DNA of 64,000 nucleotides from contig JAEINU010000001.1 of assembly GCA_016342685.1 (NCBI GenBank), forward strand, positions 372,001 through 436,000, in the 5' to 3' direction. Below the pieces are notes generated by a model. It saw only the letters and a list, made by a program, of their open reading frames with translations. It was not told the origin of the DNA and ran no database searches. Below, one piece after another: positions 31,329 through 55,311 of this stretch. The DNA is from Bacteroidales bacterium (GTDB lineage Bacteria; Bacteroidota; Bacteroidia; Bacteroidales; UBA12077). Both the position numbers and the translations under genes were made by a program. The first letter of the stretch is position 1, and every line of letters begins with the position of its first letter.

Positions 31329-31616
31329 CTATACATTACTATTGTCTTTTGCAATACCTAAAAAGGCTTTGCGTAAACGAAGTAATGTTAAAGAATAAGT
31401 AGTTGCCGATAATGCAAACACGTCGTCTTGTGTAAGCATTAAAAGAGTGTCGATTGCATCGAGTAATTCCTCTGCAATTTTCTGGGGATTACCTTCGAAA
31501 TAGTCGTAAAGGATTTCGAAGAAACCATCCATTTCCCAAATTGAATCGTTAAACGAATCGTAAACCAGGTTCGAAATTACTTCCTGGCTTTCTGTTTTTA
31601 CTTGTTGTTTTCGCAT
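31329..31616 (-). CDS. Small helical phage protein, unknown
   Basis: 95 aa from MRKQQVKTESQEV; an alternative start 54 bases upstream would add a hydrophobic segment out of keeping with the rest. Acidic and all-helical (DAIDTLLMLTQDDVFALSAT). Single-gene unit with its own terminator and a structured leader upstream. Function unknown. Confidence 0.6.
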   Translation of the reverse strand: MRKQQVKTESQEVISNLVYDSFNDSIWEMDGFFEILYDYFEGNPQKIAEELLDAIDTLLMLTQDDVFALSATTYSLTLLRLRKAFLGIAKDNSNV

Positions 31617-31648
31617 AAAACAAAGTTTTAAATATGTTAATAAAAGAA

Positions 31649-31731
31649 CCGAGAGCTGCGAAAACAACAAAACTTGTACGTGACAAGAAAGGTAGTCTCT
31701 GGTTCGCGGGGTTACCCAACCAAACTCTCGG
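31649..31731. other. Structured intergenic element (possible leader RNA)
   Basis: An 83-base block closed by a 7-bp inverted repeat CCGAGAG/CTCTCGG, enclosing two further hairpins: CTTGT-ACGTG-ACAAG (31673-31687) and GGTT-CGCG-GGG-TTA-CCC-AACC (31701-31721). It is more GC-rich than the flanking DNA. On the minus strand it forms the 5' leader of the 95-aa gene; on the + strand it could be a short RNA. Not a tRNA: no D, anticodon or T arms fit. Confidence 0.4.
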
Positions 31732-31858
31732 CCTATTAATTTTATTACTTAATCCCAAACACCACATTTGTAGATAGTAATTGATTTGAAACTTGTGATT
31801 TTGATTTCTCACGTTACTTATGTTTTTGTTATTTTCGCATTGCTAATATACAAAAAAA

Positions 31859-44359: not shown

Positions 44360-44954
44360 CTGTTATATTGGCATCTTTCTTAAGGGCTTCTTTTTCTTCT
44401 TTGTTTATTGGCATTTGTTCAATAAACTGCTCATACATACCATCGCTTGCTTTTTTGGATATTTTTCGAAGATCCTTGCGACCGAATCCTAATCCTTCAA
44501 CAGTAATGTCGGGTGTAATTAAGAATACCGGTGGAGAAAGTAATTCAAGATCTATTGCGGATTCATCTTTCTTGGTTCGATAATAATGTGCTTTATCTAA
44601 GGCTTTAAAAGCAGTTGTATAATTACCATCTGCTATTGCAATTCGTGCAAGATCTTCTTGCTTATCGGCGTAGTAATTGTCCCAGGCTTGGTTCTTTACA
44701 TTGTTGTTTAAATGAAAATAATTGATTGCATCGTAAACACGTTGGCGAGCTGTTTGAAAAGTAATCTCGTCGGGAAATTCGGTGACTAAATCTTTTGCAA
44801 CTTTGGTAACATTACCATATAGATTATGCAATTCGGCAGCACGATCAAGATGAATAATAAATTGTTGCAATGGTAAAGCAATTGCACTTGACTCTTTTCT
44901 TTTGCGAAAATCGGCAATGATATCCGGATCCAGTTTTTCGAGTTTGTCTATCAT
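44334..44954 (-). CDS. Terminase small subunit-like protein
   Basis: 206 aa. N-terminal helices with an HTH-like part (AAELHNLYGNVTKVAKDLVT, TARQRVYDAINYF), then a helical oligomerisation part and acidic tail. Located directly before the large terminase. It probably recognises the packaging site; the upstream 105-aa gene could share the role. Confidence 0.6.
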   Translation of the reverse strand: MIDKLEKLDPDIIADFRKRKESSAIALPLQQFIIHLDRAAELHNLYGNVTKVAKDLVTEFPDEITFQTARQRVYDAINYFHLNNNVKNQAWDNYYADKQEDLARIAIADGNYTTAFKALDKAHYYRTKKDESAIDLELLSPPVFLITPDITVEGLGFGRKDLRKISKKASDGMYEQFIEQMPINKEEKEALKKDANITDVDHEEID

Positions 44955-45268
44955 TTTTGTTCTATTCCGAATAGTTCGTTTTTCATTCGTTCCATTCTTT
45001 TAAAGTGATTCTGCTTTTCTACATACTCCACTGTTTCCACATCGCCAGTTCTCATTTGCTGCATTAAAGAGTTCTCAACCTCGAACTGAGCAAAGGCTTT
45101 TCCATGCTCATATTTTTGTCGGACTACAGATCCTTTATCATTGAAGATCTCAATAAACCTGTTCAGATCTAATGGATCCAGACCGAGTACAATTGCAATT
45201 CGTTGTGGTGTGTATTCGAGTCCACCACTATTTTCAATAATTTCTAACTGATCATCATTAAATTGCAT
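44951..45268 (-). CDS. HTH protein of the packaging cluster
   Basis: 105 aa. YTPQRIAIVLGLDPLDLNRF is helix-turn-helix-like, followed by a coiled helix with KQNHFKRMERMKNELF. Overlaps the next gene by 4 bases (ATGA-type coupling). Either a true small terminase or its partner. Its ATG lies within a TTGCATTACAA motif copy. Confidence 0.55.
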   Translation of the reverse strand: MQFNDDQLEIIENSGGLEYTPQRIAIVLGLDPLDLNRFIEIFNDKGSVVRQKYEHGKAFAQFEVENSLMQQMRTGDVETVEYVEKQNHFKRMERMKNELFGIEQK

Positions 45269-45321: not shown

Positions 45322-45346
45322 GTGCGTGTGTTTCGGTTATTTTTAC

Positions 45347-45354
45347 TATTTTTG
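45347..45354 (+). promoter_or_regulatory. Putative promoter of the 45.4-kb RNA element
   Basis: + strand TATTTTTG, a perfect TAnnTTTG, ends 3 bases before the first stem. TTTC-type sequence lies near the -33 position. Confidence 0.5.
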
Positions 45355-45357
45355 AAC

Positions 45358-45486
45358 TGTCACACATCATTCGTACCCACAAGAGTAAAAGATATTCCCG
45401 AGCGGAGCTATTTCGCAAGGGGTAGCTGCTTTTGTGGGTTTTTCTTACAGGAGATGTGTGACAACTACCGCTCGGGTCTTTTTTAG
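45358..45486 (+). ncRNA. Candidate pseudoknotted small RNA
   Basis: About 129 bases on the + strand with four stems: A TGTCACACATC/GATGTGTGACA (45358-45368 with 45453-45463, 11 bp), B ACCCACAAGAG/CTTTTGTGGGT (45375-45385 with 45429-45439, 11 bp, one G-U), D AGCTA/TAGCT (45406-45410 with 45423-45427), and C CCCGAGCGG/CCGCTCGGG (45397-45405 with 45468-45476, 9 bp). C crosses A and B, giving a pseudoknot, and is followed by TCTTTTTT. A promoter-like box sits just upstream. It has no ORF. It could also be a DNA-level packaging site, as it lies beside the terminase genes. Confidence 0.6.
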
Positions 45487-45492
45487 ATCTTC

Positions 45493-46284
45493 TTAATAAT
45501 TCATTACAATAAGCTCGATTTGTTTTCTCCTGGATGTTTTAGCAGCTGAAATTGTACGTTCAACTTCCACAACTTTCCAATTGTTTCGGATAACAAATCC
45601 TGTTAAGGTCTCATTCGGAAACATGGTGAGCATAAACTTGCCCTCAATCGTTTCAAGAAGTTTCAGGAGCCTTATAAACTCTTCCTCGGTATATCCACAA
45701 TAATGCCCACAGTCGGTGCCGATATATGGTGGATCTGTAAAGTGAAAAGCTTTTGATGTATCTCTCGACTTGATAATTTTAAGTGCATCGGTCGATTCAA
45801 TTTGTGTATTCTCGAGTCGATGTGCAATCGTTTCTGCAAGAGCATATTCCTTGGAGTTTAAGATCTTTTTAGAAGTTTGATTTTTAGTTTTATCGTAACC
45901 AAATGATCCATCCAAGCGACTTGCAAATGAAGATTTACTTAAATACCACAAAGCCCATGCACGTTTTACCTTTGTAAAATGCTCAGGGTATGTGTAAATA
46001 AATCTAGCAAATACGTGTAAGTTTCTACTGTGAATAGTTGCATCAATTTCTTGGTGCAACTCTTTAGAATTCCTTTTAAAAACCTGATAAAAGTTAATTA
46101 ACTCGGCATTAATATCGTTAATTACTTCTACTTTGGCAGGATCTTTTGCAAAAAACACAGCTGCTCCTCCTGCGAATGCTTCTGTGTATATTTCATGTTC
46201 AGGTATTAAAGGCAAAATATGCCGCAATAATAGCTGTTTTCCACCATAATAGGTGATAGGTGTCTTTGTCACAACATCCTTCAT
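45493..46284 (-). CDS. D12-class DNA adenine methylase
   Basis: 263 aa. SAM site ITYYGGKQLLLRHIL and YTEAFAGGAAVFF, catalytic FTDPPYIGTD. Dam/DpnM-type N6-adenine methyltransferase, commonly phage-borne to protect DNA from host restriction or regulate packaging. Its place between head and packaging genes favours a late role. Target probably GATC-like, but that is not determined here. Confidence 0.9.
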   Translation of the reverse strand: MKDVVTKTPITYYGGKQLLLRHILPLIPEHEIYTEAFAGGAAVFFAKDPAKVEVINDINAELINFYQVFKRNSKELHQEIDATIHSRNLHVFARFIYTYPEHFTKVKRAWALWYLSKSSFASRLDGSFGYDKTKNQTSKKILNSKEYALAETIAHRLENTQIESTDALKIIKSRDTSKAFHFTDPPYIGTDCGHYCGYTEEEFIRLLKLLETIEGKFMLTMFPNETLTGFVIRNNWKVVEVERTISAAKTSRRKQIELIVMNY

Positions 46285-54628: not shown

Positions 54629-55006
54629 TTAAATATTTCTATAAATAAATTTCTCAAGTAGTTCAAGTTCTTGTCGATATTTAGCATCGGTATCTTTTAG
54701 ATTATTAACTGTTTTTATAGAGTGTAGAACAGTAGCATGATCTTTTTCTCCTATTACCAGACCTATTGTTGCTAAACTGTCTTTTGTTAATAATTTAGCA
54801 AAGTAGTGCGCTTGTTGGCGAGGTTTAACAATTTCCCTTTTTCTATCTTTGTAGTCAATTAAAAAAGATCTAATTCCGTGAAATTCTGCAACAAGAAGTT
54901 TAATATGATTAGTTGTAATTGTACTATCAAGTTTCTTTTTACTCGCTGTAATAGCTAATCCCGGTATTATGTAAGCCGAGAATTTTGGTTTTGTTATTGT
55001 TTCCAT
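54629..55006 (-). CDS. DnaA domain IV-like phage protein
   Basis: 125 aa from METITKPKFSAYI, the first ATG (a TTG lies 15 bases upstream). The C-terminal half, DRKREIVKPRQQAHYFAKLL through IGLVIGEKDHATVLHSIKTV, is the DnaA DNA-binding domain: conserved basic helix and the DHxTVLH signature. No AAA+ domain, so it is an origin-binding or DnaA-competing protein. The adjacent iteron array may be its target. Confidence 0.82.
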   Translation of the reverse strand: METITKPKFSAYIIPGLAITASKKKLDSTITTNHIKLLVAEFHGIRSFLIDYKDRKREIVKPRQQAHYFAKLLTKDSLATIGLVIGEKDHATVLHSIKTVNNLKDTDAKYRQELELLEKFIYRNI

Positions 55007-55053
55007 ATCTCTTTTTCTCAATTTTTAAAAACTTTTTCCGAAAGTAACCTACT

Positions 55054-55229
55054 ACTTACTACAGGCTTGTAAGTTTCTGTTATGCTGTTTGTTAAGTATA
55101 AAACACACCTGCAACATTTTATTTGTAGTAAGTTGTAGTAAGTTATGTAGTAGGTTCGCAAGAGGGTTACTTACTACACTTTTTGCACTGATTTTCAGAT
55201 TTTTGCAGAGTGTAGTAAGTGTAGTATGT
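55054..55229. repeat. GTAGTAAGT iteron array, candidate replication origin
   Basis: Seven 9-base units: + strand GTAGTAAGT at 55125, 55135 and 55212, GTAGTAGGT at 55147, GTAGTATGT at 55221; inverted at 55054 and 55169. They lie in the 305-base gap between the DnaA-domain protein and the VapE-like gene, flanked by AT-rich DNA. A 66-aa frame across them is a product of the repeats. Iterons next to an initiator-like protein are typical of phage or plasmid origins. Confidence 0.65.
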
Positions 55230-55311
55230 TGTTTTTTAAGTTGTTCGCTCATGCTTTGTATTTATTTATTATAACTAATTGATAATTAATATTATAAAAT
55301 ATATATAGACA

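Follow-up and report, generated by a model that had tools for sequence, protein, structure and literature searches.

The systems closest to the element described here are antisense or structured RNAs encoded by phages, plasmids and restriction-modification loci. The c4 RNA of P1/P7 (RF01695) is a phage-encoded structured antisense RNA that controls phage genes (PMC12197685; PMC2864571). P22 sar and lambda OOP are small phage antisense RNAs that lower the level of a phage protein (PMC12197685; PMC5415839). STnc6030 of prophage BTP1 is a prophage RNA complementary to a phage structural gene; its target region is given as the tailspike gene and its role as superinfection exclusion (relevant section of PMC12197685). 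Further, antisense RNAs act on restriction-modification genes in the EcoRI and Eco29kI systems, where they arise from reverse promoters inside the restriction gene; the sections of PMC3874152 and PMC12707154 that deal with them describe neither a separate structured RNA gene nor an orphan phage methyltransferase. Phage- or plasmid-linked structured RNAs that lie beside one protein gene include the AbiF RNA RCd22 and the ToxI-type RNAs, of which ToxI is pseudoknotted; these RNAs bind a toxin protein and contain repeats (relevant section of PMC12373285). In transposable prophages of Bacteroidota, the last gene at the right end is often a methyltransferase, and the section of PMC7761591 on these genes does not mention an RNA there.

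The element analyzed here and 16 relative loci were not matched by the RF01695 covariance model. Compared with the layout of c4, the element has, judging by its sequence, its own promoter; it lies 3' of its target in convergent orientation, contains a pseudoknot and has a DNA methyltransferase as its predicted target. Whereas P22 sar and lambda OOP are transcribed from the strand opposite their target and overlap it, the target predicted here lies at the far end of the gene; the predicted contact is short, with imperfections, and the RNA folds into a pseudoknot. Unlike the role described for STnc6030, exclusion is raised here only as a hypothesis. In contrast to RCd22 and ToxI, the element is a single unit beside a methyltransferase gene. 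We found one convergent unit rather than the tandem repeats that precede the nuclease toxin in type III toxin-antitoxin systems, and the predicted target is a 263-aa D12 methyltransferase rather than the small toxic peptide of a type I system. A full-text literature search of open-licence PMC papers revealed no description of an RNA at this place.

The element and its setting in the window

The window (the whole 64-kb stretch of DNA analyzed) contains a prophage with a tyrosine integrase adjoining tRNA-Met, a VapE-type primase/helicase, a tape-measure protein, a head protease and a large terminase related to Porphyromonas phage terminases. The element occupies the gap between a methyltransferase (MTase) gene and a TerS-like gene (44951-45268, - strand), and the RNA and the MTase are convergent. 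The features of the locus are as follows.

45347-45354 (+): TATTTTTG, promoter box of the TAnnTTTG type, 3 nt upstream of stem A
45358-45484 (+): predicted pseudoknotted antisense RNA gene, its ends placed by the promoter box and the U-run
45358-45372 (+): predicted antisense seed, the stem A 5' arm plus the next four nt, complementary to MTase codons 1-6
45358-45368 (+): stem A, 5' arm, 11 Watson-Crick pairs with 45453-45463
45375-45385 (+): stem B, 5' arm, 11 pairs with 45429-45439, one of them G.U
45397-45405 (+): pseudoknot stem C, 5' arm, 9 Watson-Crick pairs with 45468-45476, crossing stems A and B
45406-45427 (+): stem-loop D, 45406-45410 with 45423-45427, 5 pairs
45429-45439 (+): stem B, 3' arm, partner of 45375-45385
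45453-45463 (+): stem A, 3' arm, partner of 45358-45368
45468-45476 (+): pseudoknot stem C, 3' arm, immediately upstream of the U-run
45477-45484 (+): TCTTTTTT, predicted terminator U-run, after stem C
45493-46284 (-): D12-class (Dam-type) N6-adenine DNA methyltransferase, 263 aa, partner and predicted target
46266-46283 (-): predicted target site, MTase mRNA +1..+18 (A of ATG = 0), duplex with the RNA 5' end

An earlier note on this DNA had described four stems (11, 11, 9 and 5 bp), the box and the U-run, and all of these are present as described, with one G.U in stem B. We take TAnnTTTG to be the Bacteroidota promoter consensus; a -33 promoter motif was looked for and none was seen. When the pseudoknot was left out, the RNA strand folded with z = -5.75. 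The note had also claimed that chance would not give the crossing of the stems. Within 45340-45500 this was upheld, as two crossing perfect stems of at least 8 bp appeared in 0/2000 dinucleotide shuffles (any perfect stem of at least 9 bp in 51/2000). In the 64-kb window, 21 of the 24 listed rows with such crossing stems were other places, and because crossings also occur elsewhere in the window, the crossing alone is weaker evidence than the note had assumed. In our judgement, the reality of the pseudoknot is settled by covariation, since relatives form stems A, B and C again from other letters (see below). Its signals, the box and the U-run, mark the window element as a complete gene for a small RNA that runs antiparallel to the late operon and whose pseudoknot is real, as had been proposed. 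The strand assignment rests on the same two signals, because covariance models hit both strands of these stretches (E down to 1.4e-7 on the opposite one) and the stems contained 5 G.U against 2 A.C.

The note recognized no known RNA family, and database comparison agreed. Rfam 15 (4227 families) gave only a tRNA in the window at gathering score, leaving the element unmatched; at E up to 10, two weak matches appeared 5' of the element, both below the gathering score. Further, Rfam covariance models did not match any of 16 relative loci.

The window MTase belongs to Pfam PF02086 (E 7.9e-25; 88.5 bits against a gathering score of 22) and matched PHROG 56 (E 6.6e-62). Its score against TIGR00571 (Dam subfamily) was 106.4 bits, short of the NCBIfam cut-off of 114.85; therefore we call it Dam-type and claim no target site. 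The related MTases are minimal enzymes (262-274 aa among 18 listed), and PF02086 was the sole Pfam match in the four MTases scanned.

Two other places in the window drew attention. At 31590-31750, in and after the ORF 31329-31670, there is a 14-bp inverted repeat around TTGTTTTCGCA together with CCGAGAG/CTCTCGG, possibly another structured element. At 54950-55300, upstream of the VapE-type primase/helicase gene, GTAGTAAGT/ACTTACTAC repeats possibly represent an origin or operator.

Relatives of the element and their linkage to the methyltransferase

A covariance model built from the single sequence (R1) detected a second copy in the same genome (copy 2, E 1e-5), and nothing below E 0.3 in 58 other genomes. 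Copy 2 belongs to a Mu-like prophage with Portal_Mu, a TniB-like ATPase and DUF2586. It comes immediately 3' of an MTase that is 65% identical to the window MTase, and the two converge; the other neighbor of copy 2 is an AAA_13 ATPase gene. The promoter box and the letters of stem A are alike in the two copies, and stems B, C and D are altered on both sides: stem C, for example, reads CCCGAGCGG/CCGCTCGGG in the window and GGGTGGGG/CCCCACCC in copy 2. With filters off, R1 also found L146, L135 and L153. A weak R1 match in L052 was taken as chance; it lies inside an ORF that is presumably UvrA-like by its sequence, and no MTase is present among the ORFs of at least 90 aa listed there. A further model (R2) was run on 248 genomes and gave 6 weak matches (E 0.055-0.096) but no convincing additional copy; in the own genome, its third match reached only E 7.7. 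Searches with the element sequence gave no match in phages and plasmids, and a DNA search of 25 family genomes, including the own genome, gave beyond the window only short weak matches (best E 0.016). The stem-A pattern GTCACACAT..ATGTGTGAC gave 7 stretches in viral contigs, none of which was in the family on inspection. TerL as bait yielded 0 viral loci, 2 genome loci and 48 phage records, with 12/295 genomes including the own genome, and brought no information on the RNA.

We describe the family as collected through the MTase, which served as bait in genomes, viral contigs and phage records. A script scanned the antisense strand of the 350 nt 3' of each MTase for the topology A(B(C[..B)A)C]. 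The sample comprised 260 loci with 214 distinct MTases, 172 of which had at least 130 nt of 3' sequence, and the score cut-off was 31. The RNA topology was found 3' of 40/172 distinct MTases; 42 scored above 31, and L156 (31.7) and L303 (31.9), which have no promoter box, were removed by judgement, while L251 and L166 were retained despite the scan seeing no box. The highest score among 516 shuffles was 28.1, and of 1500 natural windows taken from these loci at a distance from the MTase, 2 exceeded 31 and 0 had a box. An earlier round, with 100 loci, agreed with this, its 300 shuffles scoring no higher than 30.6. No RNA was detected in the other 132/172 MTases; this RNA-negative group gives a lower bound on loss, and some of its members, for example L134, resemble degenerate copies by eye. 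In L134, a seed GGCTTATTT and a C-like pair AGCCCCG/CGGGGCT lie 3' of the MTase, with no good stem A.

The 40 RNAs share the topology, the TAnnTTTG box and the U-run, and the letters of their stems are near random. A TAnnTT[TC][GA] box ended 1-5 nt upstream of stem A in 36/38 RNAs, and the distance from the end of stem C to the MTase stop codon was 20 nt or less in 32/38 (31-109 nt in the others); L145 and L163, whose stems were mis-set by the script, were omitted from these counts (n = 38). The first 8 nt of the stem A 5' arm had a mean pairwise identity of 34%. The arms of each RNA paired throughout (A 304/304, C 266/266, B 186/186 in 31 RNAs), which follows from the construction of the search; the information lies in the 3-5 pair types per position and in the control, in which arms swapped between RNAs paired at 42-54%. 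The note had named covariation analysis of homologues as a check, and compensatory changes were found: in a five-row covariance-model alignment, 15/22 pairs of A and B changed on both sides. Shuffles gave a mean of 6.3 such pairs, with 0/500 reaching 15, and a slid alignment gave 1-4. The RNA family and the covariation of its stems are thus results of computation, as is the link to the MTase described next.

As the family was collected through the MTase, linkage within this sample is partly by design. Therefore, we searched 2.9 million viral contigs by the letters of the C stem alone. This search gave 36 stretches, 12 of which had stem A and the promoter box in the right orientation, and all 12 complete matches lay 2-86 nt from a convergent MTase. 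The search is the only MTase-independent test of linkage and covers only RNAs with the AGCCCGGAC form of C; its script listed a stretch only if a box or a stem A of at least 9 was present, and the statement on linkage covers 12/36. Nine of the 12 contigs had already been sampled, and L341, L348 and L367 were new. RNA-bearing MTases were scattered over the MTase tree yet clustered (24 changes versus 36.2 in shuffles, 0/500 as low), and the RNA subtype tracked the tree (4 changes versus 11.7 in shuffles, the lowest of 300 being 8). A screen of 50,697 phage records turned up such an MTase, within the limits used, only in Winogradskyella phage Peternella_1 (two records) and in Bacteroides phage BF1-TP2. 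Peternella_1 has 70 nt after its MTase and BF1-TP2 reached a scan score of 20.9; therefore no cultured phage with the RNA was found among these records.

A TAnnTTTG box was present within 120 bp upstream of the MTase in only 12/172 MTases, and the window MTase is without one. Because so few MTases have such a box, the RNA and the MTase are probably driven by different promoters.

In L054:14408-14421 (-), L104, L107, L148, L246, L266 and L270, we observed AAACgAAATGTAC-like repeats together with a TATAATCG (or TATAATCC) mark, and these repeats and the mark follow the 3' ends of several RNA-negative MTases. Their appearance is that of the right end of a Mu-like phage whose last gene is the MTase. 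In Mu, the DNA-modification gene mom is last at the right end.

Complementarity to the methyltransferase start region

The loops of the RNAs scored -18.6 kcal/mol against the start of their own MTase mRNA and -12.8 kcal/mol against those of other MTases (38 loci; 0/2000 permutations as low). When the whole MTase mRNA was scanned from -200, the best site fell within -80..+30 in 29/40 loci and outside this region in 11/40; the expected share is 11%, and 12.8% of 320 non-cognate tests had their best site there. In the short-joint subtype (16 RNAs, including that of the window), named for the joint between A3 and C3, nt 1-16 were compared with the start codon region and gave -14.7 kcal/mol for cognate and -8.1 for non-cognate pairs (p = 0.0002). 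In the long-joint subtype (24 RNAs), the A5-C5 segment was compared with the leader and gave -25.5 and -14.1, respectively (p = 0.0002). There was no cognate signal when the segments were exchanged (p = 0.06 and 0.998). Further, in the long subtype the cognate RNA was not favored at control stretches +100, +300 and +500; pairing at +300 reached -20.4 in absolute terms but was no better with the cognate RNA. Cognate complementarity at the start is, like the family, a computational observation, and it is the pattern expected of a phage antisense RNA, namely start-region complementarity with cognate above non-cognate pairs; in the window taken alone, it is seen only with a gapped duplex.

The MTase start ranked first among ORF starts in 30/40 loci. 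In the remaining 10/40 it was not first, and L153, L161, L163, L166 and L267 fit their assigned seed badly; 13/40 loci fell below the non-cognate 95% level. L348 and L367, which had not contributed to the rule, fit it with -26.6 and -35.0, compared with -16.3 and -17.0 on average for non-cognate pairs; in L341, the third new contig, the MTase start lies beyond the contig end. The most favorable non-cognate pairs, at -30.3 and -36.2, scored lower than the cognate ones because related leaders share sequence. Clean duplexes were formed in L166 (17/17 pairs), L193 and L138 (14/14) and L265 (14/14). The perfect 17-nt site of L166 lies in the A5-C5 segment, its other segment, and given this site we placed L166 in class I, the leader-pairing subclass (25 loci with L166), for the analyses of leader hairpins. 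In L161 and L153, complementarity to the MTase leader (at about -57 to -38) resides in the 3' strand of stem A rather than in the 5' end, possibly a third pairing mode.

The mismatches in cognate duplexes comprised 21 G.U and 5 A.C (p = 0.0012), or 15 and 5 at the strictest cut (p = 0.02), the cases not being independent, as some are common to related RNAs. This excess of G.U fits pairing between RNAs and not repeats in DNA.

In the window, RNA nt 1-15 formed a duplex with MTase mRNA +1..+18 at -16.9 kcal/mol with a bulge, and the MTase start ranked first of 85 ORF starts, the next being at -11.0. With ungapped scoring, the best match in the start region was 8.6 at -54..-43, against a non-cognate median of 8.4, and the best match in the whole MTase mRNA lay in the CDS at +116. 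Because the ungapped match is not above background, the case for the window rests on the gapped duplex, the rank and the family. In copy 2, RNA GTCACACATTTATT pairs with mRNA AATAAATGTGTGAC across the MTase start codon. Beyond the copy 2 RNA, the AAA_13 ATPase gene begins (L054:14436-16337, + strand); the start of this gene ranks second among the targets of the copy 2 RNA (-12.5 versus -19.6 for the MTase).

The leaders of class I tend to have a hairpin abutting the MTase start codon, with a stem score of at least 7 in 76% of the 25 loci; this score was reached in 0% of the 15 other RNA loci and in 35% of the 132 RNA-negative MTases. The sequence of the hairpin varies between leaders (for example L193, L217, L214 and L084), and the hairpin abuts or includes the start codon and often has an AAGC loop. 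The predicted target in class I is the 5' arm and loop of this hairpin. The start region was predicted to be less open than in RNA-negative MTases (0.39 versus 0.58, p 5e-7), and blocking -42..-22 opened it (gain 0.25 versus 0.06, p 4e-6; shuffled leaders 0.03). When the predicted site itself was blocked, the start opened in 25/25 loci, in 4 of which the duplex covers at least 5 nt of -15..+5. This modeling predicts that the RNA of the hairpin subclass activates the MTase by opening the hairpin, although it could instead be a repressor that acts through the hairpin. In the start-codon subclass, repression would be expected because the pairing covers the first codons. The two subclasses thus predict opposite signs of regulation.

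In long-joint RNAs such as L193 and L217, AAGCC of C5 is an alternative partner for the seed GGCTT. Local alternative partners of C5 showed a small excess (5.55 versus 5.19, p 0.005). Formation of stem C could possibly free the seed from C5 as a folding switch, for which the statistical support is weak.

Proposed role and rival explanations

We consider it likely that the element is a ~127-nt antisense RNA gene that controls the neighboring phage DNA adenine methyltransferase by pairing with the start region of its message, and we call the group a putative new RNA family, made up of phage antisense RNAs that are pseudoknotted and dedicated to one kind of target, a methyltransferase. Transcription, the direction of regulation and its timing are what we infer, and the promoter, the ends and termination are read from the sequence. 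A TAnnTTTG promoter of its own would drive the RNA toward the MTase, with transcription beginning at stem A and ending in the U-run behind stem C. It would not act through local overlap on the opposite strand; instead, its 5' end would pair in trans with the MTase translation start, which is encoded 0.8-0.9 kb from the RNA gene. Contact on codons 1-6 in the window would likely block ribosome loading and keep the MTase low, probably in the lysogen because the RNA promoter is of the housekeeping type and the MTase has no promoter within 120 bp. Stems A, B and C would form a scaffold whose letters are free to change, and the seed would have to follow its target. In the second subclass, the seed would lie in the segment that joins stem A to stem C, on the 5' side of the C arm, and pair with the 5' arm and loop of the leader hairpin; this pairing would open the hairpin at the MTase start codon, and activation is predicted.

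The RNA may also be a self-regulator and an inter-phage weapon at once. Made by the lysogen from its housekeeping-type promoter, it would pair with the MTase messages of relatives, whether co-resident or incoming, and determine if these phages are protectively methylated, the one scaffold serving both signs. We regard this wider role as doubtful. In this genome, pairing of the window RNA at the start of the second prophage's MTase scored -14.9 kcal/mol, close to the -16.9 at its own.

Antisense control of the MTase has to be weighed against other readings of the same features. If the RNA bound the MTase protein as an inhibitor or cofactor, with mRNA complementarity secondary, tight linkage to one protein family, a subtype that follows the MTase tree (4 changes versus 11.7 in shuffles) and a strong and conserved fold would fit, and RCd22, which binds AbiF (PMC12373285), provides a precedent. 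However, the letters of the stems are near random (34% in the first 8 nt of A5), the MTase is a minimal D12 enzyme and the cognate mRNA complementarity is left unexplained, and we hold protein binding to be improbable. Seen as DNA, the complementary sequences form a short direct repeat on the two sides of the MTase (unbroken over at most 17 bp), and the module is present in unlike phage types; seed and MTase start could thus be flanking copies from cassette insertion or for recombination. Repeats in DNA are expected to give equal numbers of G.U and A.C rather than 21 and 5 (p = 0.0012). Further, the repeat sits at two set places in the RNA and at the start region, and the promoter box, U-run and covarying stems would go unexplained, so that we find a DNA-level origin very hard to accept.

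A convergent terminator or interference device, in which the conserved parts only end transcription or stabilize the 3' end of the MTase mRNA, would agree with the closeness of stem C to the MTase stop codon (within 20 nt in 32/38) and with the plain hairpin present there in several RNA-negative MTases (among 24 listed). Yet such a plain hairpin would suffice, and the promoter box, the pseudoknot and the start-region complementarity are not accounted for; we give this device very little credence. The earlier note had suggested, from the position beside TerS/TerL in the window, a packaging RNA of the phi29 pRNA kind or a DNA-level pac/cos site, and L163 and L214 share a protein with the terminase side of the window. 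The argument from position was not supported, as the element follows the D12 MTase and not the terminase: copy 2 has the MTase and the AAA_13 gene as neighbors, and the MTase-independent matches were at an MTase in 12/12 cases. On the far side of the RNA, no gene cluster spans more than two loci, linkage to a packaging motor was not found across the relatives, and Rfam gave no pRNA match. In the inspected Porphyromonas phage (among the nearest by TerL, 45% identical), the methyltransferase and 'acr candidate' genes, which precede TerL as the window MTase and TerS-like genes do, overlap; therefore there is no room for the element, which already argued against a packaging role. A pac/cos site would leave the promoter box, the U-run, the stem covariation and the mRNA complementarity unexplained. 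Packaging in either form is scarcely credible.

Meaning for Bacteroidota phages

If antisense control of the methyltransferase is correct, a group of Bacteroidota phages would control DNA self-modification via a dedicated RNA family that is absent from Rfam. This would bear on how small RNAs find their targets in a phylum that is commonly said to lack Hfq. The 40 RNA-target pairs would form a natural mutagenesis set that shows which contacts matter and allows the role of the pseudoknot to be tested. Further, the family exemplifies a hypervariable RNA that is nearly invisible to sequence and covariance searches and can be found via its neighbor and its target; on its one scaffold, repression may have given way to activation or the reverse.
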